NCBI GenBank assembly: GCA_947470515.1
Contig: CANITF010000010.1
Location: 1-64,000 of the forward strand
Reading direction: 5' to 3'
Source: Flavobacteriales bacterium
GTDB lineage: Bacteria > Bacteroidota > Bacteroidia > Flavobacteriales_D > Crocinitomicaceae
DNA length: 64,000 bases
Position numbers and translations under genes: made by a program. Below the pieces are notes generated by a model. The model was not told where the DNA came from. It saw nothing but the letters and a program-made list of their open reading frames with translations, and did no database searches. How positions within the stretch are numbered: the stretch's first letter is position 1; every line of letters begins with the position of its first letter. Below, piece after piece: positions 2,733 through 23,026 of this stretch.

Positions 2733-2817
2733 GATAACGGTTTGCGTTTAGGTGATGTTGCCTTGTGTTGTCCCGATGTTTCGGGACGGCAAGGCAATAT
2801 TGCTTACACGCTGTTAA
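2733..2817. repeat. nested palindromic intergenic element
   Basis: A 7-bp inner stem (2770-2776 with 2781-2787, loop TGTT) sits inside an 8-bp outer stem (2758-2765 with 2790-2797). Further out, GATAACGG..TGCGT on the left matches ACACGCTGTTAA on the right as an imperfect inverted repeat. Its end overlaps the stop codon of the caspase-like gene, so it could act as a terminator or mRNA-stabilising structure. The layout also suits a dispersed palindromic repeat, and a decayed relative is visible at 8871-8917. Confidence 0.7.
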
Positions 2818-3557
2818 AGGCTGTTTAATTTTATTGCAAATGGGAAATTCAAGTTTTCTTCTTTATCATTTATCGTTACAATTTGTGGATTCTGATCAAA
2901 ATTTGATTTGAATTTCAAATACTGATGAGCTAAATCATTCGCACCATTTATAGATAATATGCTTTCGTTATTTTGGTTCTCATACCATTCTCGAGATGTT
3001 TTTAGCAATGAATAAGTATAGTCGCCTCCTAATTCTGTATCATTACTTATTTCTCCAACAGAGCAAGCATAAGCTATAGAAATACCATCTGTACTTTCAG
3101 AAATTATTTGCATGTATTTTTCACTAGAATTTGGTTGATCTAAACTTGATTTAAAGGATAAATATTCAGGACCTGAAAAACTTGCGTATTCTTCAACTAA
3201 GGATTTTCTGCAAGTATCAATAATTATTAGTGCTTTAGGTGCTTTTATAATCGAAATTAGTTGAGAAACAGAAAGTGATTCGGAATCGTTTATTTCAATA
3301 TTCGTTTCATTTAAGTCATGATTACCGTGGCCGGAGAAATACACAAGTAAGAAGTCAGTATATGTACTTTGGAATAATTCGATCAAATTTTCAGATGGAC
3401 ATTTAAACAGTCCTGCAATTTCATTATCCTCCCAAGAACCACCAATAGGTGATTTTAAAAAACTTACAAAGTGATGTAAATCAGCATCGACACCCTTTAA
3501 ATAATTAACAGAATTCTTTGGTCCTGGGGAACCAATCATTATTGCTTTTCTAGTCAT
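2814..3557 (-). CDS. caspase-family (peptidase C14-like) protein
   Basis: The 247-residue protein has the caspase-fold hallmarks. His77 lies in YFSGHGNH after a hydrophobic strand, and Cys116 lies in IIIDTCR after a second strand; these are the expected catalytic dyad. The N-terminus contains the family's first strand and a DADLHHF stretch typical of metacaspase-like proteins. It has no signal peptide, so it should act in the cytoplasm. Bacterial caspase-fold proteases are often effectors of abortive-infection systems, where a sensor activates them. Here no TPR, NTPase or nucleotide-sensing domain is fused, so any sensor must be a separate protein. Neighbours are a palindromic element, a 111-residue unknown gene and, divergently, an integrase. 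Confidence 0.8.
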   Translation of the reverse strand: MTRKAIMIGSPGPKNSVNYLKGVDADLHHFVSFLKSPIGGSWEDNEIAGLFKCPSENLIELFQSTYTDFLLVYFSGHGNHDLNETNIEINDSESLSVSQLISIIKAPKALIIIDTCRKSLVEEYASFSGPEYLSFKSSLDQPNSSEKYMQIISESTDGISIAYACSVGEISNDTELGGDYTYSLLKTSREWYENQNNESILSINGANDLAHQYLKFKSNFDQNPQIVTINDKEENLNFPFAIKLNSL

Positions 3558-4056: not shown

Positions 4057-5289
4057 ATGATACACGTAAATTTCTCAATAAGATTTTTGGTGAAAGCTTT
4101 AAAAAGTGATCCCAATAAATCATTTTTATACTTGAGACTTTCTTTGAAAAAAGAAAAAAAAGAAATCGCTTTAAAAATTCAAGTAAACCCAGAATTATGG
4201 AACCAACAACAGCAATGTATGGATGGCAAATCTGAAAGCTCTAAAGTCATCAATGATGAATTAGAAATGATTAAGACGCGACTGCGCAAAATCTACAATG
4301 ATTTGCGTTTTCAAAATGGTGATGTAAAAATGGATGAAGTTTTAAATGGTTATTTAGGCAAGAACCGTTTGCATGGTAAACATACTTTATTGGAAATTTT
4401 TGACATTCACAACAAACGTGCTGCAGCACTTGAAGGCAAAGGATACGCACATAACACTGTCGTTAGGTTTAATACAACACGTGATCATGTTGCCAATTTT
4501 CTAAAAGTCACGTATAAACAAAATGACATTGATTTAAGCAAACTTAACTTCCAATTTATAGAAGAGGTACATAATTATTTTGTGGTCTCTAAAAAATGTT
4601 GCCATAATACGTCGGTAAAATACATTCGGATCATTAAAAAAATCGTCAAATTGGCCATTCAATATGAATGGCTCGATAAAGATCCATTTATAAACTTCAA
4701 GCAATCATTGGATGAAGTGCATAGGGGACATCTTTTGGATGGAGAGCTTGATTTATTAGAAGAACTGATCCTAGTTAAATATAAGGATCAAAGAGTGAGG
4801 GATTTATTTATTTTTTGTTGTTACACGGGTTTATCTTATTGCGATGCAGCTTCACTTAAACAAGATCAAATAGTTGTCTATCCTGATGGGGAGTTATGGG
4901 TTAACTTAAACAGAAAGAAAACTGGCGGAAAAAGTAGTTTTCCACTTTTAGATAAAGCAAAAGCGATTTTGGATAAATATAAGAATGATCCAGAATGCGA
5001 TGTAAAAGGTACATTGTTGCCTTTTGTTTCGAATGCAAGAATGAATACTACTTTGAAGGTGTTAGCTAAAATGGCAGGAATTAATAAAAATATAACAACT
5101 CATCAAGGAAGGCACACGTTTGCGACGACGATAACCATGAGCAACGGTGTTCCAATAGAAACTATTTCAAAAATGTTATCGCATAAATCTATAAAAACGA
5201 CACAGCTGTATAGTAAAGTGTTAGATCTTAAGGTAGGACATGATATGCGAATATTAAAAGAGAAACTGAATAAAAAAAAGATTAATTAA
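4057..5289 (+). CDS. tyrosine recombinase / site-specific integrase (Bacteroidetes type)
   Basis: The 410-residue protein has the usual three parts: an N-terminal arm-binding domain (about 1-95), a SAM-like core-binding domain (about 105-215) and the catalytic domain (about 225-400). Visible active-site residues are Lys287/288 in the RKKTGG turn, His349 and Arg352 in HQGRH, His376 in LSHKS and the nucleophile Tyr385 in QLYSKV. The position usually holding the first catalytic Arg reads TGLSY with Ser260, as in the IntDOT branch of Bacteroides integrases. The two small genes downstream look like its accessory module. It probably mobilises, or once mobilised, an element in this island. The attachment sites were not identified. 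Confidence 0.93.
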   Translation: MIHVNFSIRFLVKALKSDPNKSFLYLRLSLKKEKKEIALKIQVNPELWNQQQQCMDGKSESSKVINDELEMIKTRLRKIYNDLRFQNGDVKMDEVLNGYLGKNRLHGKHTLLEIFDIHNKRAAALEGKGYAHNTVVRFNTTRDHVANFLKVTYKQNDIDLSKLNFQFIEEVHNYFVVSKKCCHNTSVKYIRIIKKIVKLAIQYEWLDKDPFINFKQSLDEVHRGHLLDGELDLLEELILVKYKDQRVRDLFIFCCYTGLSYCDAASLKQDQIVVYPDGELWVNLNRKKTGGKSSFPLLDKAKAILDKYKNDPECDVKGTLLPFVSNARMNTTLKVLAKMAGINKNITTHQGRHTFATTITMSNGVPIETISKMLSHKSIKTTQLYSKVLDLKVGHDMRILKEKLNKKKIN

Positions 5290-6122: not shown

Positions 6123-7454
6123 TTAGGAATTTTTCGTTTGTTTCCATTTCCTATTTATCTTTTTTGCTTTATCAGGAAACATAAAGATGAATAGGGGAAT
6201 TGCTGAAATTAGAATTACTAGAGTTAATAATAAAAAGAAAACAATCTGATTTAAACCAGACTTTTGCTGGAAGTTGTTTACTCCAGACAATATAGGCCCA
6301 ACGCTACTAATCGATGTAAACAAACCTACAACACCTAGTAATAAATTGGAACGGCTTTGTTTTTGTTCTTGAATTGCTTGACTAATTCTATTAATCCTGT
6401 CTTGAAATTTTTTCAATTCAGGTTCAATGTCGAGCGTTTTTCGGTGTTCTTGATAAATTAGATTTGGTAAAAAATTATAAGAAATATGGCTGACATTGTA
6501 TGCGTTTAAGAAAGCTTCAAATTGATCACGAACTTTGACGGAGTCATCAATCATTTCAGAGTTGAAACGGAATAAATTAAACTTTATAACCAAATTATGA
6601 ATGAAAATCCTAAAGTAAAGTTGAGACCAAGTAGTTGAGTGAAAAGATTGTTTGTCACCATCAAGTATTCCTTTTCCAAGAACTGTGAATGTATCGAATA
6701 ATGGAAGAATATCGTAGTTGTTAAAAACGGATATTTTATTTTTCATTAATTCATCAAAATAGTCGTTGCTAGGAGAATACGTTTCATTTCCGCCTGCAGT
6801 GCCTATTTTTGAAACACAACCAACATCATATAAAAGTTCTAATCTCTTTTTATGATCAATTTCTTCTTCTAAATCAATTACAGTAAATAGCTTAAATTTT
6901 GAGCCAGAATATTCGTCTACTTTTACTTTTTTTGTGGTTAAATCAGTACTTATTTTAATTCCTGCTAACACCTGGTTTTCTATCCAATTTACCCATTTAA
7001 AATCTTTACCATCTTCAATTATTTCGGTATTAAAGTTTCTTGAGAAAAACATTAAGTCCGAATAGCTAGATAATAGCTTGGAGTCTATTGTTAATTCAAT
7101 TGAAAAGAAATGAAGATTATTTGGAAATAAGAAAAGCTCAACATCTCCTACAATAGCATTTAACCATTCTTTTTCTTTTGTTTCATAATTAGTTCTAACT
7201 ACAAGAGAAATTTCTTTGTTTAGCGTTTTTTTAAGAATTGTAGAACTTGTTTCTTCCGATTTAAAAAAATAGATATCTCTAAATTCTGGATACCAGTAAT
7301 TTTTAATGAATGAATTGTTTGTATCGATTTCTTCTTCTTTGTAATTACTGTCCTTGAAATTTTTCACGGTAATTTGAAGCCTACCAGTTGTTTCAAAAAC
7401 ACCGATTATACGAATAATAGAATTACTTACTTTAAAATCTAAAATGTTATTCAT
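6123..7454 (-). CDS. unknown protein with C-terminal two-span membrane hairpin
   Basis: The first 330 residues of this 443-residue protein look soluble and mixed alpha/beta. A charged helix (about 345-368) follows, then two hydrophobic segments (about 370-391 and 403-426) and a short basic tail. This layout, a large cytoplasmic domain plus long helix plus two terminal spans, resembles CorA-type channels in topology. However, I see no GMN signature and no clear sequence match. In a defence-rich island such architectures are often membrane effectors. It is monocistronic and divergent from the next gene. Function unknown. Confidence 0.6.
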   Translation of the reverse strand: MNNILDFKVSNSIIRIIGVFETTGRLQITVKNFKDSNYKEEEIDTNNSFIKNYWYPEFRDIYFFKSEETSSTILKKTLNKEISLVVRTNYETKEKEWLNAIVGDVELFLFPNNLHFFSIELTIDSKLLSSYSDLMFFSRNFNTEIIEDGKDFKWVNWIENQVLAGIKISTDLTTKKVKVDEYSGSKFKLFTVIDLEEEIDHKKRLELLYDVGCVSKIGTAGGNETYSPSNDYFDELMKNKISVFNNYDILPLFDTFTVLGKGILDGDKQSFHSTTWSQLYFRIFIHNLVIKFNLFRFNSEMIDDSVKVRDQFEAFLNAYNVSHISYNFLPNLIYQEHRKTLDIEPELKKFQDRINRISQAIQEQKQSRSNLLLGVVGLFTSISSVGPILSGVNNFQQKSGLNQIVFFLLLTLVILISAIPLFIFMFPDKAKKINRKWKQTKNS

Positions 7455-8929: not shown

Positions 8930-11900
8930 TTAAACAACTATCGGAGCTACTGATATTGCTATTTCATTAAAAGTATCTTTCCTTATAGACTTCAATACTC
9001 CAATCATTTTTAATGTTTCTTTAGCAAGCACTTTAGCCATTTTATGTTCACCTATTTCATTTAATTTTTGAACTGATAAATAATATGCTTCGATAGGTAA
9101 GTCAGCTAATTCATTAAGTGTCGATTTTACTTTTTGTATTTTAACATATTTTATTTTTTCTTGAATAATTCTTTTTTCAACTTTTTTGTTTGATAAACAA
9201 TATTGCATTAAATCAAGATTAGCGAATTGACTCAGTTGATTAGGTTCTGATGATTCATTTAAAAGTGCTTTAGCTATTGTAAAAAAGTGCTTTCTTTCTG
9301 AATCATCAAATAATGAAAAAGCTCGGTGAATAGTACCAATGATACCAGGAGGTTCATTCAATTCACTTTCTAGCATCAATGCTTCCAAATAAAATGCTTT
9401 TGATTGAGCTAATTCACCAACTTCAAAATTTAAAATTCCAAGCCTATTTAAAGCATTACTAATTCCTTTTTTTTCACCTAATTCTATGCGTATATCCAAA
9501 CATTCTTTGTACAGTTGCTCAGCCTCTTCAGTTTTTCCTTGATTAAAATTTAATCGTGCAATATCTGTGAGACTTGTACATATTCCTTTTTTATCATCCA
9601 ATTTCCTTCTTATACTCAAAGATTCTAAAAATAGTTCTTTTGCTTCTTCAATTTTTCCTTCAATAACTTTGATGTCTCCAAGTGCAGTTAGTGGGAAAGC
9701 AATTCTTCTTTTATCACCTAGCGATCTAAGAATTTCTAGTGATTCAAAATACATTAATTTGGCTTCATTTAGGCGGTTATTTGCTTTAAGAATATTAGCT
9801 TTATTATGCAGTATTTTAGCTATACCAGTTCTGTCCCCGATTTTAGTTGATATTACAAAAGATTCATCATACAAGGAAATTGCATCTTCGATCATTTTCT
9901 TTCCCTTCTTACTTATGGCAATGTTATTCAATACTTCAGCCTGTAAAAGTAAAAACTCATTTGCTTTTGCTAATTCTAGAGCCATTATATTATTCTCATG
10001 GCTTGAAACTTTATTATTCAAATATTTTTCGAGTTTCGCAAGTTCTATGTAAGATTTTGTTAAACCAAAGTAATCTTTATGTTCAGTTTTGTTTTTTATT
10101 ACTTCGATTAGTTTTTCTTTTGCATTGGAATACCTTCCTTGCATCATATCTAATTGAGAATCAAACAACATTAAATCCGATAATACTTTGTTATTTTTTA
10201 AAAGATTTGCCTCTTGTTGTGCAATTTGCATAGTGCTAATAAAAGATTCGAAGTTCCCTGTTGTATAAAATTTATCAACTAAAGAAATCAATATATCTAA
10301 ATCTGTATTTCCGGGATTTTCTGGAAATCGTTGAATAACTGATTCAAAATGAATCTTATTCTCTATTGCGAGAGAGAATAAGATATTAGCGATAATTTCA
10401 GTAGCAAGCCTTTTAATTTCTTGCGTTTCCTGATCGACTAGGTCTGACAAATCAATCAACACATCAGATTGGTCATTATTACAAAATCTCAAGACAATCA
10501 TTTCAACGGCTCCTTGTAATATTTTAAATTCTGAAATTCGTTTAAATAAATTTAGAACATCCATTGCATCATTTACTTTTGAAAAATGCAATTCAGCAAG
10601 CATGAATTCTAGAAAACGATCAAAAGCGAAACGCACAAAACAATCATCTTTTTCCCACTCTTCCATCAGAACGCCCAGTTCTAATAATTGAATGTATGGA
10701 CTATCTTTCTGCGCGTTAATCAAATAAGTTTTAAACGCATCCATTTTTATTAAAGTATCTCGTTCAATACGTTCAGTATTTTGTTTGTCAAATTCACGAA
10801 CTAATAGATTTAATAGTTTTAATCGCTCAGGAAAACCTGCAGATTCATTAGTCTTTTCAACGACAATATTGTCCAAATATAGTCGCATAGCTTCATCATT
10901 TTTTAATTGCGATGGTAACTTTGATCGGTGAAAAGATTGTAAAATTAATCTAGTCATTAGCGGACTTCGCAATAATTCCAGAGTAGTTCCATTTGGCTCT
11001 AATTCAGAAAAAGTAGTTAGCGGTCTATATTTATAAAATCCTTCGTCCTCTGAAATTACAGAATCTTTCCATTTAAAATCGCGATAAGCATTATAAAGTT
11101 GTTCGGTGAATTTTTTAGCTAAAGGTTTAAGACGAACCACATTTGAAGAGATCTTTTCTCCATTTTTTTCTTCCTCAACTTTATAATAATTATTAGTTGC
11201 AATTTCACCGAATTTCGAAATAGTTCTGCTATAAGCACTATCTCGAATACTTACAATAACTTTAAACCATCTGTAATTAGAAGATTGAGCGACCATGTTT
11301 TCAATCGACTTTATCAAATCGTTTATGTTACCAGAGTATTCATTCAGAGCATCAATTATCAAATAACAATTTAGATTTGCTTTAGAAAATATGTTATCTG
11401 CCAAACTTAAAAAGTCTTCGAGGTAATTGAGTTTTAATGCACAATCTCGAAGAAATTTACTGGCTATATCTGTTTGATTCAATGCGCTACCTCTATAAAA
11501 CAAAACCATATGGCCATCATCCTGCCATAATTCTGTTTTTTGTGCAAGCAAAGTACTCTTTCCGATTCCACTTTCACCTCCTAATACAAATCCATTAAAG
11601 GCGCTCGAACAAAACGAATCTAAATATTCATTTAAATCCTGTCTTTCGACTGTTGCTTCACGAAGATATTTACCCGACGTAATTAATGCTTGAATGGCGT
11701 TGTAACTAATATGCTTACCTAAAGAATGTAGAATTTCTCTGGATAGATTTTTTTCATCAATTATTTCTACATCCATTTGCTTTTGGGCAAGTAAATCTTT
11801 CCAATGTTCAAAACGAGTAGTTTTTTCAAGATGTTCGCCTGATGAAGAAAGGTAAATAAGAGTGTTTTTAGTACTTCCTTCAAATACAAAAACATCTTTA

Positions 11901-12853
11901 CCCATCTCTGGCAATCCTATTTCATTCGTCTGTTCCACATCAAAAAACGCATATAGAGGGAGTATTTCGCCAGTAGAATCATTAATTATAAATAGTGGAG
12001 AAATTGAGGGATTTATACCATCTCGAGTGAAATCAACTTTGCTTTGTGATGGATTTGAGCCCATTAGTCGAATACCATTGACTCCATTTTTGCTAGATTC
12101 AACATGCCAAAGTGTGTATCTAGATACAAAACGCACCTCCTGTAAAATATCACATAACAGCGGATAATATTCATCGAACTCTTTTTGTGCTCTCTCTTTA
12201 CTTTGATTAAATCCATGTGCAAGCCCATTTCTATAATTTATAAGTGCTTGGATTTTACCGAGTTTTTTAGTTTTTGTTTTTATGTTTCCGTGCTCATCAC
12301 TGTAGGATTGACTCAACAAAAAAGGGTCTTTGCATTTACTTTCTAATTTTTCATATGCGCTCCTCATTTCTGGTGAAAACAATTGAATTCCTTTATCTCT
12401 AAATACAGGTAAAGACCTGGCAATTAAAAGATTCCAAGCCGAAATAAGTGGCCTAGAAAGATCCTTTGTAAGTGTTTGATGTATTTGCAAATCCTTAAGT
12501 TCCGGAACACGAATATATTCGCTAGCTAATTGGAGAGACAGGTATTTCAATATAGCTGTAAAAGTATCTACCATTAACTTACATTTCATTCTCGGATCTG
12601 TTTCTTTTAAAAGATCACTGAAGGGTCGCGCAATAAGATAAGGGTAAGCAGAAACAACTTCTTGTTCAAAAGGAGTAAAATCTTTTTTTTCGGAATTAAC
12701 AGTTGTTTGGGTTAAAGAGGAAATAATTGGATTATTTAATTCAGGTTTTGCCTCTACTATTCCTTCATGTGAAATAAACTTTACCTCACCACTAAATGTG
12801 TCTAACACATAAAGTCCATTTGATGCTAAAAATCCTTCGTATCTTTTTTCCAT
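8930..12853 (-). CDS. STAND-type NTPase with HEPN-like motif and C-terminal TPR repeats
   Basis: Counted from the ATG at 12853 the protein has about 1307 residues; a TTG 13 codons upstream is an alternative start. The N-terminal 250 residues are helical and contain an RNGLAH motif (R208-H213), which fits the Rx4-6H signature with Asn after Arg that marks HEPN domains. A P-loop NTPase follows, with Walker A GESGIGKST (about 426-434), a Walker B of the LIIDALNE kind (498-505) and a sensor-like VSIRDS. The last 450 residues hold tandem TPR units with repeated NALNRLG and KGxxxxL patterns. This is the domain logic of STAND immune sensors: TPR ligand recognition, NTPase oligomerisation, N-terminal effector. 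It lies 108 bases downstream of a GIY-YIG gene on the same strand. Toxicity of the HEPN-like part is inferred. Confidence 0.8.
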   Translation of the reverse strand: MEKRYEGFLASNGLYVLDTFSGEVKFISHEGIVEAKPELNNPIISSLTQTTVNSEKKDFTPFEQEVVSAYPYLIARPFSDLLKETDPRMKCKLMVDTFTAILKYLSLQLASEYIRVPELKDLQIHQTLTKDLSRPLISAWNLLIARSLPVFRDKGIQLFSPEMRSAYEKLESKCKDPFLLSQSYSDEHGNIKTKTKKLGKIQALINYRNGLAHGFNQSKERAQKEFDEYYPLLCDILQEVRFVSRYTLWHVESSKNGVNGIRLMGSNPSQSKVDFTRDGINPSISPLFIINDSTGEILPLYAFFDVEQTNEIGLPEMGKDVFVFEGSTKNTLIYLSSSGEHLEKTTRFEHWKDLLAQKQMDVEIIDEKNLSREILHSLGKHISYNAIQALITSGKYLREATVERQDLNEYLDSFCSSAFNGFVLGGESGIGKSTLLAQKTELWQDDGHMVLFYRGSALNQTDIASKFLRDCALKLNYLEDFLSLADNIFSKANLNCYLIIDALNEYSGNINDLIKSIENMVAQSSNYRWFKVIVSIRDSAYSRTISKFGEIATNNYYKVEEEKNGEKISSNVVRLKPLAKKFTEQLYNAYRDFKWKDSVISEDEGFYKYRPLTTFSELEPNGTTLELLRSPLMTRLILQSFHRSKLPSQLKNDEAMRLYLDNIVVEKTNESAGFPERLKLLNLLVREFDKQNTERIERDTLIKMDAFKTYLINAQKDSPYIQLLELGVLMEEWEKDDCFVRFAFDRFLEFMLAELHFSKVNDAMDVLNLFKRISEFKILQGAVEMIVLRFCNNDQSDVLIDLSDLVDQETQEIKRLATEIIANILFSLAIENKIHFESVIQRFPENPGNTDLDILISLVDKFYTTGNFESFISTMQIAQQEANLLKNNKVLSDLMLFDSQLDMMQGRYSNAKEKLIEVIKNKTEHKDYFGLTKSYIELAKLEKYLNNKVSSHENNIMALELAKANEFLLLQAEVLNNIAISKKGKKMIEDAISLYDESFVISTKIGDRTGIAKILHNKANILKANNRLNEAKLMYFESLEILRSLGDKRRIAFPLTALGDIKVIEGKIEEAKELFLESLSIRRKLDDKKGICTSLTDIARLNFNQGKTEEAEQLYKECLDIRIELGEKKGISNALNRLGILNFEVGELAQSKAFYLEALMLESELNEPPGIIGTIHRAFSLFDDSERKHFFTIAKALLNESSEPNQLSQFANLDLMQYCLSNKKVEKRIIQEKIKYVKIQKVKSTLNELADLPIEAYYLSVQKLNEIGEHKMAKVLAKETLKMIGVLKSIRKDTFNEIAISVAPIVV

Positions 12854-12961
12854 ATATTTAAATATTAAATGTTTGACTGCAGAGGAAGGCAACCATATAT
12901 TTTACATAACCCATATCATCAAAAAATGTAAACTGCTTGTTGTTCGGTATTATTTTCTGTT

Positions 12962-13623: not shown

Positions 13624-13725
13624 AGCGAATACAGCGGCATTTTCCGGATGGACGCTTCCTTTTACAAGGCCATCGCAGATGTAACAGAGGTAAGTTGGTT
13701 CGAGGTGGGACATGTTTATAATTGA
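13624..13725 (+). pseudogene. coding remnant, C-terminal fragment of an unknown protein
   Basis: A plus-strand frame reads as protein-like sequence (SGIFRMDASFYKAIADV, then SWFEVGH) and ends in TGA inside the 3' end of the convergent ATPase gene. No full gene surrounds it. A second, more decayed copy of the same sequence lies at 14941-14999, on the other side of the ATPase gene. The parent gene is not recognised. Confidence 0.4.
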
Positions 13726-14852
13726 GTATTTCTTACAAATTCACGGAAATTATCTTTGTCAATTACAGTGCCCGTTGCATCATATTCACGCAAGAAAGTG
13801 GAAGGAATTTTAACGGACCCTTTTTGTTTCCATTTAAATTCATAGGCAGTTAATTGACCATTTGATTCTTCCACAAAATCGATTTCTTGCTTTTGTACCG
13901 TGCGCCAGAAATAGTTGTTTGTATAGATAAGATTGTATTGTTGCATCTTCAAACGCTCTGATATTAAAAAATTCTCCCACAAAGCACCTTTATCTGTTCG
14001 CAAATCCAGTGGATTAAGATTATTGATGATCATATTACGAATTCCGTTATCGTAAAAGTAAATCTTCCGGTTATTTTTGATTTCATTGCGTTGGTTCCTG
14101 CTGAAACTATTTAATCTGAAAACAATGAATGCCTTTTCTAGTAGGTCAATGTATTTTGAAACAGTAGCTTTGTCAATCTGCAACATATTGGACAATTCAT
14201 TGTAGGAAACCTCACTTCCCAGCTGTAAGGCTAATGCTTTCAATAATTTATCCAATAAATCCGGCTTTTTAATGCCGGTTAATGACAATACATCTTTGTA
14301 TAAATAACTGGATGTAAGTTGCTTTAATACCTCACGTGCTTCAGATCGGTTATTAAGTATATCTGGATACATCCCGTAAATCAATCTTTCTTCCAGTTGC
14401 GCGTTTGCTTCTACATATCCAACATGGTCTTCAAATTCTTCCCAACTAATTGGAAATAACTGGTATTCAAACTTTCTTCCAGTTAATGGTTCCTGTGTTG
14501 AATTACTAATTTCCAATGCAGAAGATCCACTCAATACTAATTGCACATTTTTGATTTGATCCGTGATCATTTTGCCAATGAGTCCAATATCTTTGATCCG
14601 TTGTGCCTCATCGATGAAAATATAATGGTGATTTCCAATGATGGATTTCAATTTTGAAACACCGGCATTTTCTAATAAATCTCTAATTTCTGGGTCGTCT
14701 CCATTTAGAAATAGAAAATCTTTTCCATCAAGACATTCTTTTAACAAAGTAGTTTTTCCTACTTGTCTTGGCCCAAGTAGAACAATAGCTTTTCCTTTAT
14801 TAAGCTTAGAAATTAGTGTTTTATATAAGTCTCTTTTAATCATAATCACCAA
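13716..14852 (-). CDS. AAA-type ATP-binding protein, AAA_14/DUF4143 family
   Basis: The 378-residue length, a Walker A GPRQVGKTT near residue 32, a Walker B FIDEAQRI near residue 98 and a LSGSSALE sensor motif match the AAA_14 ATPases. The C-terminal half carries the DUF4143 domain, with a winged-helix-like region (NELSNMLQIDKATVSKYI) and a nuclease-like end (WENFLISERL, QEIDFVEE). Such proteins are widespread and of unclear role; some lie in mobile or defence regions. It is flanked on both sides by copies of one short decayed coding sequence, suggesting it was inserted between them or duplicated with its flanks. Confidence 0.85.
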   Translation of the reverse strand: MVIMIKRDLYKTLISKLNKGKAIVLLGPRQVGKTTLLKECLDGKDFLFLNGDDPEIRDLLENAGVSKLKSIIGNHHYIFIDEAQRIKDIGLIGKMITDQIKNVQLVLSGSSALEISNSTQEPLTGRKFEYQLFPISWEEFEDHVGYVEANAQLEERLIYGMYPDILNNRSEAREVLKQLTSSYLYKDVLSLTGIKKPDLLDKLLKALALQLGSEVSYNELSNMLQIDKATVSKYIDLLEKAFIVFRLNSFSRNQRNEIKNNRKIYFYDNGIRNMIINNLNPLDLRTDKGALWENFLISERLKMQQYNLIYTNNYFWRTVQKQEIDFVEESNGQLTAYEFKWKQKGSVKIPSTFLREYDATGTVIDKDNFREFVRNTQL

Positions 14853-16599: not shown

Positions 16600-16827
16600 T
16601 TAATTAACTTTTCCATATTGTTGTTCCCATACCTCAGCACCAGTGCGGTTATCGTGAGGAAGATCACTTGGCTTTTTATGATTGACCATTATTATAATGA
16701 ATACAATAGTAAATAACCAAAAAAAAATAAAGTACTTTCCAAAATGGCCTTTAAAATACCATCGGATAAAAGCTACTGTTAGTGCGATTATAATTATTTT
16801 ATTGAGAAGTTCCCAAAATCCTTTCAT
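16600..16827 (-). CDS. small membrane protein, last gene of the envelope operon
   Basis: The 75-residue product has two hydrophobic segments (about 8-23 and 32-49) and a polar C-terminal tail of about 25 residues ending near EVWEQQYGK. It starts 10 bases after the DUF350-like gene, so it belongs to the same minus-strand operon. No family is recognised. A helper or assembly subunit of the neighbouring membrane proteins is a reasonable guess. Confidence 0.55.
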   Translation of the reverse strand: MKGFWELLNKIIIIALTVAFIRWYFKGHFGKYFIFFWLFTIVFIIIMVNHKKPSDLPHDNRTGAEVWEQQYGKVN

Positions 16828-16837
16828 ACTGCGTAGT

Positions 16838-17362
16838 TTACATTATATTAGGAACATCTGGATAGGGAATAAACGATTCTATGAAAATAATAAATGGATT
16901 TTTTGTAAACATTGCAGTCACGATAGTTAAAACACTGATCAAGATGGCAACACCAACGTTATTCTCCTTGATTTGAGTGTATTCATCAAGTTGTGTTGTA
17001 AGAAAAGCAAACATTTTGTAGGCAATAAATACAATTGCAGCACTAAAAACATAACCAAGAAATAAAAACATTCCAATGTATTGGGCATATTTCAAAATTA
17101 ATGTGCCGAGCGAATAATTACTTGTTTGAATGAGTTTAAAAGTTGCTGTAAGCGGTTCCATTATTCCAAAGGTAATGTATGAAACTGAAAAGATTGTTCC
17201 GCTTAAAAAGATGAGAAATGACAGGTTCTTGTATGGATCGATTTCCCCAGTTTTTTTAACGTAGAAATTCATTACTACCATTTTCGTTAAAAAAACGGTC
17301 ATTATTCCTATCAAAACGGATAATAATAACTCAAAGGCTGCAGAACTGAAAATTGTACTCAT
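16838..17362 (-). CDS. DUF350-like polytopic membrane protein
   Basis: I place the start at the ATG at 17362 (174 residues), 10 bases after the upstream stop; an in-frame ATG at 17479 would overlap the upstream gene by more than 100 bases. Five to six hydrophobic segments are visible, and the last one with its NNVGVAILI and ESFIPYPDVPN context resembles DUF350 (YjfL-like) proteins, whose second repeat ends in a similar IPFP/IPYP motif. DUF350 proteins are inner-membrane proteins of unknown function. Context puts it in the seven-gene envelope operon. Confidence 0.6.
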   Translation of the reverse strand: MSTIFSSAAFELLLSVLIGIMTVFLTKMVVMNFYVKKTGEIDPYKNLSFLIFLSGTIFSVSYITFGIMEPLTATFKLIQTSNYSLGTLILKYAQYIGMFLFLGYVFSAAIVFIAYKMFAFLTTQLDEYTQIKENNVGVAILISVLTIVTAMFTKNPFIIFIESFIPYPDVPNIM

Positions 17363-17372
17363 AGTTTTTATT

Positions 17373-19073
17373 TTATAAATTAGTATTCGGACCCATTGCA
17401 ATATACCAGTAGCGCATATTGCTGCATTCATCAGAAATACTACCAGGTGTAAAGCCCTTAGCAGTTGTTTCCCAAACATAATATTTTAAACCTTGATATT
17501 TTAGATAATCTCCACGATAATTTCCTGATACACCAATTATTGCGTGGGAATACTCATCAGATGCCAATACCACGACATTGAATCCAAGTTTTGAAAGCAC
17601 GTGATACAATAAAACACTTCTTGTATCGCAATCACCTTTAAAATTACCCATAAATTCAGTCGGTGATTGTACGCCAAATTTAATTTTATCCAAACAAGGT
17701 CCTCCAGTTCGGTGGTATTCAGAGATGAATCCTCCGTAAACTCGATCTGCTTCGCGATGACTCAAATCATGCACCAAGTAATAAGGAATACTTTGTATGG
17801 AAGAAACCACCATATCGGCAAAATCTGATTTATTCATATTTTTTGTCCTGCCAATTTTCTTGTATTCTTTTATTATTTCGGTGAGGTAATCATTATTTTG
17901 ATTAATTAGATTTCGATAGATAATAGCGTAATATGTTCTAGAATCATTCGCATTAACTTCAAGTTTATCCCGTTTTAAGCGAGAAATATTATAAAAATCA
18001 CTTCTCACTTTAAAAATCCCAGAATGAAAGTTATTGCTATTATCATTCCAATTGAGTTGATGTTTTAAGAATGAAATAGCGACAGTATCATCTGTTTCCG
18101 TTCGTATGGTGCTACTATCTATTTCTGGTGTATATTCCCAATCTGTATCGTCTTGATCAACATATTCAGGTGTATCGTCTTTGGTTTTTTTAATATGACT
18201 ATCCAAATTGATCATATTAAACAATAAATAAAAGGATAAAAGCAAAAGGCAAATTCCAATGAGTCTAATGAATTTACTAATTCTAGAAAATAGAATTAAA
18301 CCAATAGCAAGAACAAGAAAATAAGTTGTGTTTGCGGTAAATCCATGTTTAAAAAGTCCATCCAAAACATAGATTAAGAAAAGATATCCAATGAAGTTAA
18401 ATAAGTAATTATTGATACTCCAGTTTCTTTGAAACCAAGGAAAACGATCACTTAGGGCTTGTGATAATATAATAGAAAAGAAAATAGCAGGTATTACCAA
18501 ACTTAAAATTCCTAGACCATGTATTTGAGAAAGCAAATAAATTGAAAATAATCCAATAATAAGCCCTCCAATAATTGGTTGCCAAAATTTTCTTGATGGA
18601 GATAAAACTGAAATTGCAGGAGTGATTAATGTGTTATTCGTTTTAAATAAATTGAAATTAAAAAAACCAGATAACCCGGCCGGCTTAAGTGGTTTGTCTA
18701 CAACAACTGCAGGGGTAGGTAAAATAACCTTTTTAAGAATAAATAAGATCGTTCCACTAAATTCTTGCAATTCAGTTCCATTGTAGGAATTCTTTTCTCC
18801 TTTTATGATGTCCCTAATAACAAATTCAGAAACTTTTTCTTGGATAAATTCTGTCTTTGAAATAAATACTCTTATTTCTTTACTTCTTGTAGATTTATAA
18901 TATAAACCTACACAATGTTCATTTAAATCTATTTCGTCAATAACAAAGGTATCTCTAACATCAATTGTCTCAAATTGAATATCAGAAATCGATAAATTTC
19001 CCGTAGTTATAGATTTCCCTTTTAGGAAATAACCTTTAGCAGAACCTTGTATATATAGAATTTCCTCTTTCAA
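17373..19073 (-). CDS. membrane protein with C-terminal transglutaminase-like domain
   Basis: The 566-residue protein has three parts. Residues 1-120 form a beta-rich cytoplasmic-looking domain. About 165-290 contain five or six membrane segments. The C-terminal 250 residues, probably on the far side of the membrane, hold a transglutaminase-like fold with Cys482 in KGDCDTRS, His510 in YSHAIIG and an acidic residue Glu535 in WETTAKG as likely triad. Bacterial membrane-bound enzymes of this fold are often peptidases acting on envelope substrates. It lies in the middle of the operon, 8 bases after the OmpA-domain gene and 10 bases before the DUF350-like gene. Confidence 0.75.
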   Translation of the reverse strand: MKEEILYIQGSAKGYFLKGKSITTGNLSISDIQFETIDVRDTFVIDEIDLNEHCVGLYYKSTRSKEIRVFISKTEFIQEKVSEFVIRDIIKGEKNSYNGTELQEFSGTILFILKKVILPTPAVVVDKPLKPAGLSGFFNFNLFKTNNTLITPAISVLSPSRKFWQPIIGGLIIGLFSIYLLSQIHGLGILSLVIPAIFFSIILSQALSDRFPWFQRNWSINNYLFNFIGYLFLIYVLDGLFKHGFTANTTYFLVLAIGLILFSRISKFIRLIGICLLLLSFYLLFNMINLDSHIKKTKDDTPEYVDQDDTDWEYTPEIDSSTIRTETDDTVAISFLKHQLNWNDNSNNFHSGIFKVRSDFYNISRLKRDKLEVNANDSRTYYAIIYRNLINQNNDYLTEIIKEYKKIGRTKNMNKSDFADMVVSSIQSIPYYLVHDLSHREADRVYGGFISEYHRTGGPCLDKIKFGVQSPTEFMGNFKGDCDTRSVLLYHVLSKLGFNVVVLASDEYSHAIIGVSGNYRGDYLKYQGLKYYVWETTAKGFTPGSISDECSNMRYWYIAMGPNTNL

Positions 19074-19081
19074 ACTATACC

Positions 19082-20236
19082 TTATTTAGCTGTTGGTTTG
19101 CCATAGAGTTCAATTTCTACTCTTCTATTCATTGCTCGTCCTTCTGTATCATCATTCGGTGCTCTAGGATTCTTTTCTCCTTCACCAATCGCTTCTAGTC
19201 GTCTATTATCGACACCTTGAAAAATAATATACGTGCGAACGCATTCTGCTCTAGTCAATGATATTTTTTTGTTTACATTATCATCTCCTCTAGAATCTGT
19301 GTAGCCAATTATTCGGGCTTTAAGATGAATGTTTTCCAATAGATAAAGGCTCAATTTATCCAAATCTTTTTGAGAAGAAGGCATTAGTTTTGAGCTATTT
19401 GTATAGAATTGAACATTTGATAAAACTACGGTGCGGTATTCTATTGTTTTATCATCATCCGTAATTGATATAGAATCAGGTTCTTCAGGAACAAAGTCTA
19501 TTTTTCTTTGGTCTGTGTCGTCATCTTCAATTACTTGTTCTTGGTCATCATTTTTACGATTGTCATCTGAAAAGAATCCAGCACATCCTCTAAACAAGAA
19601 AGATAAAAAGCCCAAAAGCAAGATAATGCCAATTAGTCCACCACAACCTAATCTTAGAAAATTAAAGCAACCAGCTCCTCCAACAGGTCCATTAAGCATG
19701 GATCCAAATGGCATACATCCGTTTCTGTTCATTAACTGAGAAGTACTTGCTAAAGGAGCGCAACCTTTTCTACTCGAAAGGTCAGTTTCAAGAATAGAAT
19801 TATCAGTATTTATTGTTGGAATTACTTTTATTTCTTCTTTTAAGGGAATATCCTTGAGCTTTTTTAATTTGCAATATAATTCAGCTTTTAATTGTCCATG
19901 ACGCACCCCATTAACTAATCTGATTTCTGATGTTTGCGGGTTATGAATAATTATATCGCTCGCATTGAATTTTCTAGCCATATCCAATGGATAGATTCCA
20001 ACTTCTTTTGGAAAAACTTCTAAACCATGAATATAGTTATCTGAAAGAAATGATTTACTTTTTTTTTCAGGTGGATTTCCTGGAATAAATTCAGCATCAT
20101 TTAAAACTTTTCTCCCTTGCAGAACAATATCATTCAATGTGATATGTGTATGTTCATTATGGTTTAAAAATTCAGCAGAAAAACTACATTCCAATTTACC
20201 ATATAACCAAGATTGATCCAAAGTTGTCTCTTCCAT
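19082..20236 (-). CDS. single-span OmpA-domain protein with cytoplasmic N-terminal domain
   Basis: Residues 1-140 are a soluble beta-containing domain with no signal peptide. One strong membrane segment lies at about 199-222, flanked by Gly/Cys-rich sequence, followed by an acidic linker. The C-terminal domain (270-378) is OmpA-like: FYTNSS at the start, GYTDSRG with Asp314, LTRAECV with Arg330 as the usual diaminopimelate-binding pair, and RRVEIEL at the end. It should anchor an inner-membrane assembly to peptidoglycan, as MotB-type proteins do. Its ATG overlaps the upstream stop (TAATG), so translation is probably coupled to the upstream membrane protein. Confidence 0.85.
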   Translation of the reverse strand: MEETTLDQSWLYGKLECSFSAEFLNHNEHTHITLNDIVLQGRKVLNDAEFIPGNPPEKKSKSFLSDNYIHGLEVFPKEVGIYPLDMARKFNASDIIIHNPQTSEIRLVNGVRHGQLKAELYCKLKKLKDIPLKEEIKVIPTINTDNSILETDLSSRKGCAPLASTSQLMNRNGCMPFGSMLNGPVGGAGCFNFLRLGCGGLIGIILLLGFLSFLFRGCAGFFSDDNRKNDDQEQVIEDDDTDQRKIDFVPEEPDSISITDDDKTIEYRTVVLSNVQFYTNSSKLMPSSQKDLDKLSLYLLENIHLKARIIGYTDSRGDDNVNKKISLTRAECVRTYIIFQGVDNRRLEAIGEGEKNPRAPNDDTEGRAMNRRVEIELYGKPTAK

Positions 20237-21258
20237 TATACTTTTTTATCAAAATGAAGAAACAAATTCCGATCTATTATTTTTGTGTATCCTTTGAATA
20301 CTGGTATTCTATTGAATGGAGGATCTTCATAAAGATTTGATTTTTCAAACTGATATTTAAAGTTCTTTTTTAAAAAAGTTGAACAATCGTCAAAAGAAAT
20401 CTGATCGTTTTTCTTCACCAGTATTTCAATTTCGTTTTGATATATTTTTCCGTATTCAAAATTCTTTCCGCACAATAAAAAGAGGTAATAAGGAATAATA
20501 CTAAAAAAAGTAAAAAACAGTAGAAAAATAATAATAGGGGAGCCTGGAATGTTAAAAAGCATCTGAAAACGCTTAAATGGCATGTCAATTTCTTTTAGCT
20601 GTGCCTCATAACTTTTTATAGAATTAAGCGTTGTTTTTGTTAACTCATTCGCTTTAACAATTCTAATATTTTCAAGAATTACGATGGAATTACTGATTTT
20701 TTGGATTTTGAATTGTATAATCCTCTCATCAGACTTATCATTTTTTAATTGTGCAATTTCAATTCTTTTTTCTTCTATTCTTTCATCAATTGAGTTTAAT
20801 TGATGATCTGCTGAATTAGTTTTAAAGATTCGGTATTCTTTAACTAATTCAGATTTTATTTCATCTATTTTAGGATTAAGTTCTTTTCTGTAAACAAATG
20901 CTACCAATGGAACAGTAATGGTAAAAACGAACATTGAAAAGATAAGTGCCCTAAAAATATTTCCGGAATTTAAGATTACTCTTTTTATCGTGATAACTTC
21001 CGATAAAGGAATTCCTATAGTTATTATCGAAAAGCGTAATATTGAGTAGTATACAAAACCTAGTATCAAACTTAATAAAAAGGCTAAAACATGACTTTGA
21101 AGAAGTAAATAGAAAAAGTAATTAAATGCCAAAACACATGCAACTATTAGTGCAATGAATAGTATTGCAACAGCTCTGAAATGTTTTTTCTCAGATTCTT
21201 TACATCGCTGAAAAAAAAGCATATCCATACCGAAAAGTTTGGCTGTAATGTTTTCCAT
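20236..21258 (-). CDS. DUF4407-like membrane/coiled-coil protein
   Basis: The 340-residue protein has three N-terminal membrane segments (about 27-50, 54-77 and 103-126), a long charged helical region (about 130-235) and a fourth span (about 240-262). This repeats the layout of the neighbouring DUF4407 protein, so it looks like a divergent paralogue or partner subunit. Both ends overlap their neighbours as TAATG, indicating coupled synthesis with the DUF4407 and OmpA-domain proteins. I cannot name a function. The shape suggests a stator-like or scaffold subunit. Confidence 0.6.
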   Translation of the reverse strand: MENITAKLFGMDMLFFQRCKESEKKHFRAVAILFIALIVACVLAFNYFFYLLLQSHVLAFLLSLILGFVYYSILRFSIITIGIPLSEVITIKRVILNSGNIFRALIFSMFVFTITVPLVAFVYRKELNPKIDEIKSELVKEYRIFKTNSADHQLNSIDERIEEKRIEIAQLKNDKSDERIIQFKIQKISNSIVILENIRIVKANELTKTTLNSIKSYEAQLKEIDMPFKRFQMLFNIPGSPIIIFLLFFTFFSIIPYYLFLLCGKNFEYGKIYQNEIEILVKKNDQISFDDCSTFLKKNFKYQFEKSNLYEDPPFNRIPVFKGYTKIIDRNLFLHFDKKV

Positions 21259-22541
21259 TATTCTTCAGTGTAGAATCCTTCAGGATTTTCATCAATTTCT
21301 TTTCCTTTTTTAGTATGCCATTTTTCTATAACCTGGGTTGTTAGTTCTCCTTGTTTATCCAATTGTTTTTGTTTGGATTCCGTCTCATGGGTTACTTCTA
21401 AAAAGTCAACTTTTTCGGCATCTTTTGCTCCGTTAATCGTGTCTACAAGTTTGTCTGAGAAAACAATACCATTATATGCTTCGATTTTCTTTTTATTATT
21501 TTCAACCATGTATTCATAAGCACCTTTGGTCATCATCATCTTAAAAAAGATTGGACCTGCTTCGATTGAAAATAACACAAGGAAGATCATAGTTGGAACC
21601 CAAAAACTCAGTTCATGTGAAATTTGAATTCGTGCAAGTAATCCATCCAATTGATGGGCTACAATGACGTTTTTCTTATATTTTTTATCTCTTCCTTTAT
21701 CGAGTTCATCGACTTCTTTGGTAAGTCTTTTTTGTCTGTCTGTAAGTGCTAATATTTCAGGTTCTTTTGTTTTTCGTTTTTCTAAAAGTTCTGCTTCTTG
21801 TTTATTAAGATTTTCTCTTTGTGCCTTTGCAGCAGGACCTTCACCAGCTTTTCCTGATCCAATTCTGCCAGCTATTTCATCCTCAAGTCTTTTTCTACCA
21901 TCCAAGATTTCAATGCGTTGCTTTTCAAAAGTGCTTTCTATTTCTGTAATCTCAGTTTCTGCTTTTGAAAGATCTATTTTTTTGCTTTTCATTTGAAGAT
22001 TTGTAATAGAGTCTGTCTTCTGGTTCAAATCAATTAGAAAGTTATCTTGTTTCTTTTGCAGTTCTGCGTCAATCTCAGTTTTTAGAATACGAATTTCAAG
22101 TGGGGCAGAGATGGCAAAGCCAAGTACAATTGCAATTAATATTCTTGGAAGTGCTTGTAATAATTCGTTTCCAGTAATTCTATCTGTTCCATCACCTTTA
22201 CCTGTGCTAGAAACAATAAATCTATCCATATTTAAAATAATTGCACCCCAAACTAATCCGAAAGCTAAGGAAAGAAGTGACCAACCAATATTGATTGGGT
22301 CTTCACTAACAGCATCACCTTTTGGTGCAAAAATGGTATAAAAAGCATATGAACCAGAAACACATGCAAGTAGGCCTGTACAAAAAACAATTCCCCCTAT
22401 ACCTGCGTATTTTACACGATCAGCCATTGGTGATTGCATTAATATTTGCTCATCTGCTCCTGCACACCACCACATTTTTTTAGTGAATTTTGAAACAGGC
22501 TTTTCATTGTAGCCTTTTATATATTGTTTAATATCTTCCAT
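21258..22541 (-). CDS. DUF4407 domain protein
   Basis: The 427-residue sequence shows the DUF4407 pattern: an N-terminal WWCAGAD motif, membrane spans near 45-70, 87-106 and 133-150, a MDRFIVSS motif between them, a long coiled-coil loop (about 155-300) and a fourth span with FSIEAGPIFFKM. DUF4407 proteins are inner-membrane proteins of unknown function. The next gene downstream has the same topology and overlaps it as TAATG. The pair with a peptidoglycan-binding partner resembles stator-type arrangements in outline only. Confidence 0.85.
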   Translation of the reverse strand: MEDIKQYIKGYNEKPVSKFTKKMWWCAGADEQILMQSPMADRVKYAGIGGIVFCTGLLACVSGSYAFYTIFAPKGDAVSEDPINIGWSLLSLAFGLVWGAIILNMDRFIVSSTGKGDGTDRITGNELLQALPRILIAIVLGFAISAPLEIRILKTEIDAELQKKQDNFLIDLNQKTDSITNLQMKSKKIDLSKAETEITEIESTFEKQRIEILDGRKRLEDEIAGRIGSGKAGEGPAAKAQRENLNKQEAELLEKRKTKEPEILALTDRQKRLTKEVDELDKGRDKKYKKNVIVAHQLDGLLARIQISHELSFWVPTMIFLVLFSIEAGPIFFKMMMTKGAYEYMVENNKKKIEAYNGIVFSDKLVDTINGAKDAEKVDFLEVTHETESKQKQLDKQGELTTQVIEKWHTKKGKEIDENPEGFYTEE

Positions 22542-22555
22542 AATAAATTAAGTTT

Positions 22556-23026
22556 TCAGTTAGTATAGTTAAGTAGTTCGTTTTTATATTCCAGTTCCTT
22601 GATTTCACTGGGGTCAATTCCAATCACATTGATCTGTAGTGCGCTAATTTCTGAGTTAAGCTTTTCGTTTCTAATTATAATAGATGATTTTTTTGTTGTC
22701 CCAACATGAAATCGTTCGAGGGAAATTCCAAATCGAGCGATGATTTCAGTTTCCAAACCTTTTGTTTGTAGAGAATTGACTGGTAATTCTAATTTTGAAA
22801 TTGTCTTGAAACCTAAAATTGTCAATTTTCTTATTTCAACGATAAATGGATTTTGATTTACTCGAAAAGACATTTCGCCGCTTGCAGAAATCGATGTGTA
22901 ATTTCTCCAAAACCAAAAACTTTTTTTATGCCAAATAAAAATGGTGCCATTTTCTCTATTACCATAATTCCATGATACTTTAATAGTTGATCCGTGAAGT
23001 ATGAATTTATGGTTAGTTTTTAGCAT
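22556..23026 (-). CDS. small beta-rich protein, first gene of the envelope operon
   Basis: The first 90 of 156 residues read like one Ig-like beta sandwich, with VSWNYG, a central IFIWHKK, SASGEMSF and a terminal strand before LELPV. The rest is a mixed tail. There is no signal peptide, so it should be cytoplasmic. It starts the minus-strand operon and ends 15 bases before the DUF4407 gene. It might be a cytoplasmic regulator or adaptor for the membrane complex. No family is recognised. Confidence 0.55.
   Translation of the reverse strand: MLKTNHKFILHGSTIKVSWNYGNRENGTIFIWHKKSFWFWRNYTSISASGEMSFRVNQNPFIVEIRKLTILGFKTISKLELPVNSLQTKGLETEIIARFGISLERFHVGTTKKSSIIIRNEKLNSEISALQINVIGIDPSEIKELEYKNELLNYTN

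Follow-up and report, generated by a model that had tools for sequence, protein, structure and literature searches.

In Pseudomonas and Legionella, LapG is a periplasmic cysteine protease of transglutaminase (TG) fold, controlled from inside by the inner-membrane protein LapD, and this proven case shows that inside-out control of such an enzyme exists (PMC3032545). HvyA of Caulobacter is a TG-type envelope protein that controls capsule and phage susceptibility (PMC4241560), and in YjfL (DUF350)-DUF4178 operons linked to PspA the DUF350 membrane protein is accompanied by envelope proteins and by a beta-rich protein of the cell interior (PMC11237479). Zorya ZorAB and flagellar MotAB each combine a multi-helix membrane protein with a single-span protein carrying an OmpA-type domain. 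Here we describe a seven-gene region at positions 16600-23026 of a 64,000-nucleotide stretch of contig CANITF010000010.1 from a Flavobacteriales bacterium (the window, meaning the whole stretch). It holds a conserved operon for a membrane-bound TG-fold protein, two DUF4407 proteins, a DUF350 protein, a putative immunoglobulin (Ig)-like protein and an optional OmpA-domain protein.

LapG is a separate protein under the control of the cyclic di-GMP (c-di-GMP) receptor LapD, whereas the enzyme of our operon, protein C, is fused to a membrane chassis. Its operon partners are DUF4407, DUF350, Ig-like and OmpA proteins, with no c-di-GMP-type domain among the Pfam matches; the operon shares the fold of the Lap system and not its composition. 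Unlike the PspA/YjfL operons, it joins DUF350 to a TG-fold protein and DUF4407, and PspA, DUF4178 and polyamine enzymes are absent from the Pfam and NCBIfam matches of its seven proteins. HvyA was compared by description only, and its abstract names no DUF4407/DUF350 set. We found no named system with this gene set in PADLOC, Pfam, NCBIfam or the open-licence papers of PubMed Central (PMC), a literature without subscription papers or preprint servers. None of these papers mentions DUF4407 together with DUF350, and one has DUF350 with transglutaminase; DUF4407 by itself occurs in three, in two of them merely in table rows. We regard the gene system as new because no library or literature covered names it. 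The first-pass annotation, made from the letters of this DNA, had likewise named none. Its separate parts are known folds or families.

All seven open reading frames (ORFs) lie on the minus strand and are transcribed in the order G, F, E, D, C, B, A. The successive junctions are a 14-base gap, two TAATG overlaps, and gaps of 8, 10 and 10 bases. The features are as follows (aa, amino acids).

22556..23026, minus strand: G, 156 aa, cytoplasmic beta protein, a likely divergent member of an Ig-like family (ORF; hidden Markov model and hhalign)
21258..22541, minus strand: F, 427 aa, DUF4407 protein with four membrane helices and a long coiled-coil hairpin (Pfam; AlphaFold2)
22185..22205, minus strand: TGKGDGT loop of F, between helices 2 and 3, residues 113-119
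20236..21258, minus strand: E, 340 aa, second DUF4407-type protein and paralogue of F (Pfam; hhalign)
19082..20236, minus strand: D, 384 aa, N-terminal domain (read as cytoplasmic), one membrane helix and an OmpA domain; optional
19124..19408, minus strand: OmpA domain of D (peptidoglycan-binding type), residues 277-371 (Pfam)
17373..19073, minus strand: C, 566 aa, TTG start, membrane-bound TG-fold protein (ORF; AlphaFold2)
18723..19073, minus strand: N-terminal beta domain of C, residues 1-117, read as cytoplasmic (model)
18207..18587, minus strand: five predicted membrane helices of C, residues 163-289 (hydropathy and model)
17388..18104, minus strand: TG/LapG-like domain of C, residues 324-562, read as periplasmic (model, fold match)
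17628..17630, minus strand: candidate catalytic Cys482 of C, with partners His510 (17544-17546) and Glu535 (17469-17471)
16838..17362, minus strand: B, 174 aa, DUF350 membrane protein, constant neighbour of C (Pfam; neighbourhood)
16600..16827, minus strand: A, 75 aa, small membrane protein, co-directional and outside the conserved set

F and E exceed the curated cut-off of PF14362 (DUF4407; 31.3 bits) with 196.2 bits (1e-57) and 34.4 bits (1.9e-8), and they are the two matches of a DUF4407 search of their own genome. The OmpA domain of D (2.6e-17) also lies over its curated cut-off, as does B with 29.1 bits against 26 for PF03994 (DUF350; 1.1e-6). C, G and A have no Pfam family above curated cut-off.

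The operon is real and conserved, with G-F-E-C-B as its core and D as an option. When named genomes were scanned by pattern with a C alignment of four rows, 75 of 120 stretches were confirmed as loci, all 75 with Bacteroidota titles. F, E or D stands upstream of C in 57 of these C-anchored loci, in the order G-F-E-(D)-C-B; some of the 57 are partial at contig ends, and the count includes L059 and L089, both with G-F-E-C-B. B directly follows C in 72 of the 75, the other three ending at a contig edge, D is present in 21, and a same-strand G-type gene precedes F in 48 of the 49 F-bearing loci. Neighbouring genes overlap or lie within 30 bases of each other at 47/48 G-F junctions (G being named by position), 48/49 F-E, 19/19 E-D, 20/21 D-C, 34/34 E-C and 70/72 C-B junctions. 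For six of the seven genes we can exclude a chance arrangement, since this order and such short junctions recur in nearly all loci that hold them.

A second anchor gave the same arrangement. An F profile matched 62 of 395 genomes of the class, 12 of them with E <1e-120; in these 12, E follows F every time, a C-type protein is present in 11 and B in nine. Nine of them show the TG domain; in G624 a contig edge cuts it off, in G492 something else takes its place, and G618 has none. The two samples overlap in at least four genomes (G041, G253, G068 and G725). The C query matched 11 of 395 genomes of the phylum, its own included. The operon is present in four of these (its own, G041, G253 and G068), G140 and G294, from outside the class, showed only the TG-DUF350 pair, and in the other five no recognised partner adjoins the match.

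The remaining 18 C-anchored loci comprise 13 with LuxE-C-B, four with C-B and no recognised partners (L087, L094, L095 and L098, with only about 1 kb visible upstream in L094) and one that is cut (L050). In the LuxE-C-B loci, a gene for a LuxE-like acyl-protein synthetase stands directly before the TG and DUF350 genes (L025, L026, L036, L038, L041, L042, L053, L054, L064, L066, L070, L074 and L076); the one representative tested matched Pfam LuxE at 1.1e-13. Eleven of the 13 share a gene read as tyrosyl-tRNA synthetase and other housekeeping-type neighbours.

The first-pass annotation had proposed one linked envelope system of seven minus-strand genes with gaps of 8-15 bases and two TAATG overlaps, among them two DUF4407-like proteins, an OmpA protein and a DUF350 protein. 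The ORFs, junctions and Pfam cut-offs agree with it, the gene order recurs from both anchors, and the scattering of homologues that would have spoken against a system was looked for and not seen. It had asked whether the seven genes stay together across genomes: G, F, E, C and B do, D does in only 21 of 75 loci, and A does not. We rejected A as a part of the system: it is not conserved with the set, and its single relative among the 75 loci (L071:4273-4509) lies upstream of the operon there.

Protein C appears to be the enzyme. Its AlphaFold2 model (mean predicted local distance difference test score, pLDDT, 80) begins with a beta domain, which is followed by about five membrane helices and then a TG-fold domain, the last with pLDDT mostly above 90; two extra hydropathy peaks, at residues 107-125 and 486-504, fall inside folded domains of the model. 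The best solved fold match of the output domain is LapG (4fgo, Z 9.1, root mean square deviation 3.7 over 140 residues), followed by TglA (Z 8.4), human TGase 3 (8.3) and PNGase (8.3), which we count as tied with LapG. Cys482 occurs in 65 of 65 aligned relatives, and His510 and Glu535 in 64 each, with one gap each. The model and alignment indicate that C carries a TG/papain-like fold with a candidate catalytic Cys-His-acid triad. The earlier label 'transglutaminase' was right at the level of the fold; in Pfam, window C gave no match at E 1, so that the cut-off of Transglut_core (PF01841) was not reached, and that family is seen at E <=0.01 in one of 65 relatives (3.9e-4). Sequence profiles of the PDB returned nothing credible, the top row being Piezo (0.0071) over the membrane part. 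Elsewhere in the window, positions 172-1830 encode a separate Transglut_core protein (1.3e-9).

The TG domain of C is probably placed outside the cytoplasm, since some C proteins begin with a DnaJ domain (11 of 65 relatives) and the number of predicted membrane helices is odd. Cys439 and Cys460 are found in 62 and 63 of the 65 relatives and together in 62, a co-conservation that fits a disulphide outside the cytoplasm. Of its constant neighbour B, 46 of 73 family members match PF03994 at E 0.001. In L133 (G492), a C-type chassis (55 bits; 11273-12658) has exchanged its TG domain for tetratricopeptide repeats (TPR) and a DUF3761-like cysteine-rich end (7.5e-5, below curated cut-off); it is the one F-E locus with the TG domain replaced, and B is missing there too.

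The AlphaFold2 model of F (49 sequences, mean pLDDT 77) has membrane helices at residues 39-71, 85-112, 124-152 and 314-336, with coiled-coil helices at 154-227 and 236-297 modelled between the third and fourth. An N-terminus on the inside, which the basic loop residues favour weakly, would make the coiled coil periplasmic. F also has invariant charges within or bordering the membrane (D106, R107, E149, E327 and K334). All 49 F proteins from the C-anchored operons share the TGKGDG loop, and the nine solo DUF4407 loci (L140-L148) lack it; the loop also turns up in L139, where there is no TG operon, and is not found in L136, although F-E is present there. An hhalign comparison of the two families (probability 99.4, E 9e-22) identifies E as a paralogue of F. 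Among phages, F matched only 15 Lak megaphage records (MK250015-MK250029), at 29-32% identity.

We then compared G with the surroundings of 36 further DUF4407 loci, taken from 35 of the 62 F-profile genomes and picked by score and protein length, not randomly. An Ig-like profile was made from 28 segments of 11 loci, none with a TG gene (one segment, L150_0, was misplaced). When both this profile and one of operon G were applied to the 2267 ORFs that the 36 loci contain, 21 ORFs matched at E <=1, and 20 of these are the same-strand gene directly upstream of F, in 20 of the 36 loci. Nine of the 20 lay outside the Ig-profile training, and the Ig profile matches five of them (L138 4e-33, L137 5e-6, L135 1.5e-4, L134 4e-4 and L133 0.006), four of which sit in C-type operons. 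Neither profile matched at E <=1 in the solo loci L140-L148, nor in L136, L153, L154, L158, L160, L161 and L163. Against the 5068 ORFs of the C-anchored loci and the window, the Ig profile gave 27 matches at E <=10, of which 12 are operon G (49 of the 5068 ORFs; hypergeometric P 2.4e-18); the top match is an operon G (2.9e-8) and the second (L031, 2e-6) is not. The hhalign comparison of the G and Ig families gave E 1.1e-4 and probability 57. These profile results suggest that G is a divergent member of an Ig-like family encoded upstream of DUF4407 genes.

The Ig-like domains have varied carriers. In L149-L152 (and similarly L164), zinc-ribbon arrays with several Ig-like repeats lie immediately upstream of the DUF4407 genes; kinase-like proteins carry the domains in L138, L155 and L157 (L156 is cut), at the protein end in three; and the carriers in L139, L159 and L162 have an N-terminus read by eye as PLD-like. 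In two genomes, G503 (L157) and G526 (L138), Pfam matches to VWA, PP2C and kinase follow one another and lead straight up to the DUF4407 gene, although for the kinase of G526 the match is below cut-off; in G509 (L155) the kinase match passed the cut-off, and VWA and PP2C were recognised by eye, with no Pfam match listed. These triads resemble TerY-P (VWA, PP2C, kinase), and their kinase-like protein bears Ig domains akin to G, whereas no match to VWA, PP2C or kinase occurs in the window operon, whose G is a bare domain. L137 has diverged strongly: it combines F, E, DUF350 and an Ig-like protein with two TG-like genes, and AAA (MoxR-like) and VWA-like genes, both recognised by eye, lie nearby.

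Starting from the observed gene set, order, domains, conserved triad and family links, we infer, step by step beyond them, an inner-membrane complex reaching from cytoplasm to periplasm, an inside-out envelope device with a periplasmic cysteine enzyme. We consider this explanation quite plausible, if somewhat short of probable. The Ig-like adapter G, together with the N-terminal domains of C (sometimes with a J domain) and D, would read a cytoplasmic cue. F and E, a pair of four-helix proteins with coiled coils that we place in the periplasm, would relay it outward. The signal may then switch or position the periplasmic TG/LapG-fold cysteine enzyme of C; the early suggestion of an enzyme as the likely output has held up. 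Beside B, C would act probably by cleaving a peptide cross-link or a protein of the surface or envelope, rather than by cross-linking, and D, where present, would pin the complex to peptidoglycan.

Several findings weigh against this device. LapG, TGases, PNGase and NAT share the fold of C at similar Z, and fold likeness is no proof of activity; Foldseek gave no match for C at E <=0.001 (PNGase at probability 0.96). The third triad residue is Glu, and in this triad it is usually Asp; window C has His at position 439 and keeps only Cys460 of the putative disulphide. The N-terminal domain that C and D would share is a weak match (probability 27, E 7e-4). For F, the fold search was uninformative, returning ABC-exporter and coiled-coil rows with no Foldseek E <=0.001 in the PDB, and the PDB sequence profiles gave nothing credible, the top row being a designed or coiled-coil chain (0.019). 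Window G reaches only E 1.8 against the Ig model, and the G genes of L131 and L132 reach only E 0.63 and 0.16 against the G model. Window F sits on a long branch of its tree, where the tree tool warns that joins may be false, and in G618, one of the 12 genomes found from F, neither C nor B accompanies F-E.

More widely, DUF4407 with an Ig-like adapter may form a general transmembrane signalling chassis of Bacteroidota with swappable inputs and outputs. The inputs would be a TerY-P kinase, a zinc-ribbon Ig array, a PLD-like-Ig protein or bare G, and the outputs the LapG-like periplasmic enzyme with DUF350 or, in L133, TPR with the DUF3761-like end. The operon would then stand for a new class of envelope effectors that work from the inside out, plausibly in conflict or stress. 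We offer this generalization tentatively.

An anti-phage or conflict function is a serious alternative: infection or damage would be sensed inside, and the periplasmic enzyme fired so as to change the envelope, shed surface receptors or cause cell death. We take it seriously because TerY-P modules, which directly precede two DUF4407 genes, have been tied to restriction and stand-alone defence in work on CoCoNuT systems (PMC11090510), and because the Caulobacter TG homologue HvyA alters phage susceptibility. The distribution is also patchy, and the F tree mixes families, joining Lacihabitans with Flavobacterium ammonificans and placing Paludibacter among Flavobacterium; some names of metagenome-assembled genomes (Chryseobacterium gleum, Chitinophaga pinensis) look unreliable. 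In this tree, 17 D-bearing rows separate from the other 32 of the 49, which are D-less (100/100), F being long enough for the tree in 17 of 22 D-bearing operons. The gene system seems to pass from lineage to lineage, one clade having gained D. As for mobile carriage, no plasmid match was found, and none of 18 pattern matches to relatives on viral contigs was confirmed.

The D-less loci have neighbours of their own. A TPR-histidine kinase gene (Pfam for one) lies near 15 of them, and a response regulator, recognised by eye, near 12. Small cysteine-rich proteins of about 70 aa, read by eye as secreted, are encoded near the D-less operons L034, L037, L046, L047, L061, L062, L067, L080, L083 and L088.

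In the window, the operon lies near a conflict-type island with the following genes.

2814-3557: caspase-like gene
4057-5289: tyrosine recombinase, by eye
6123-7454: gene with a CorA-like C-terminus
8930-12892: Avs2-like NTPase with TPR
13716-14852: AAA/DUF4143 gene (PADLOC PDC-S01, 1.1e-165)

Relatives of the Avs2-like and CorA-like genes recur in six loci each, the window included in both. A survey compared 150 neighbouring proteins (the first 150 of 159 picked) with 148 control proteins encoded near other DUF4407 genes in 11 loci; from the shuffled list of 159 controls, 11 had been removed by hand, including five DUF4407 proteins, and five other DUF4407 proteins were kept. It found 73 families among the neighbours and 16 among the controls, as scattered single matches, and most of the families listed are models that overlap on a few proteins. 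The enrichment in defence islands is suggestive only, which leaves defence a rival. Further evidence speaks against it: among the operon proteins, PADLOC 2.0.0 matched only the OmpA domain of D (ZorB models) and, at chance level, C (Vsr, 0.05), and 13 loci have the LuxE-C-B arrangement, 11 of them among housekeeping-type genes. We regard a defence role as possible and doubtful.

The TG-DUF350 pair might instead be a constitutive envelope hydrolase or cross-linking pair that G-F-E merely localises. It is the most constant pair, and it occurs without G-F-E in 17 of the 75 loci (the 13 with LuxE and the four alone) and in G140 and G294. However, operon-type F is found in just 12 of 395 class genomes, and such patchy, accessory spread and the swapping of partners suggest a conditional role. 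Such a maintenance function seems unlikely to us.

The stator analogy of the first-pass annotation, with F/E as the channel ring of an ion-driven motor like MotAB or Zorya, D as anchor and C as output, draws on the four helices and invariant membrane charges of F and on the match of the D OmpA domain to ZorB models (best 4e-10), but it is highly improbable and we rejected membership: no acidic residue (D or E) occurs in the predicted membrane helix of D in 22 of 22 sequences, whereas the membrane-helix aspartate of ZorB is described as critical (PMC11890865), D is optional and missing from most loci, the F coil lies between helices 3 and 4, and at E 1 no PADLOC model, ZorA included, matches F or E. 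As to kinship with MotA or ZorA, the lack of a PADLOC match for F and E and of a significant fold match for F does not exclude it.

In summary, the operon sets DUF4407 and DUF350, two Pfam families of unknown function, in a defined genomic context, with a probable arrangement in the membrane and, as their partner, a catalytic protein whose triad can be tested. If the proposed inside-out device is correct, it would be another route, beside LapD-LapG and built from unrelated parts, by which a periplasmic TG-fold enzyme is controlled from the cytoplasm, and the Ig-like adapter would link the system to TerY-P phospho-signalling.

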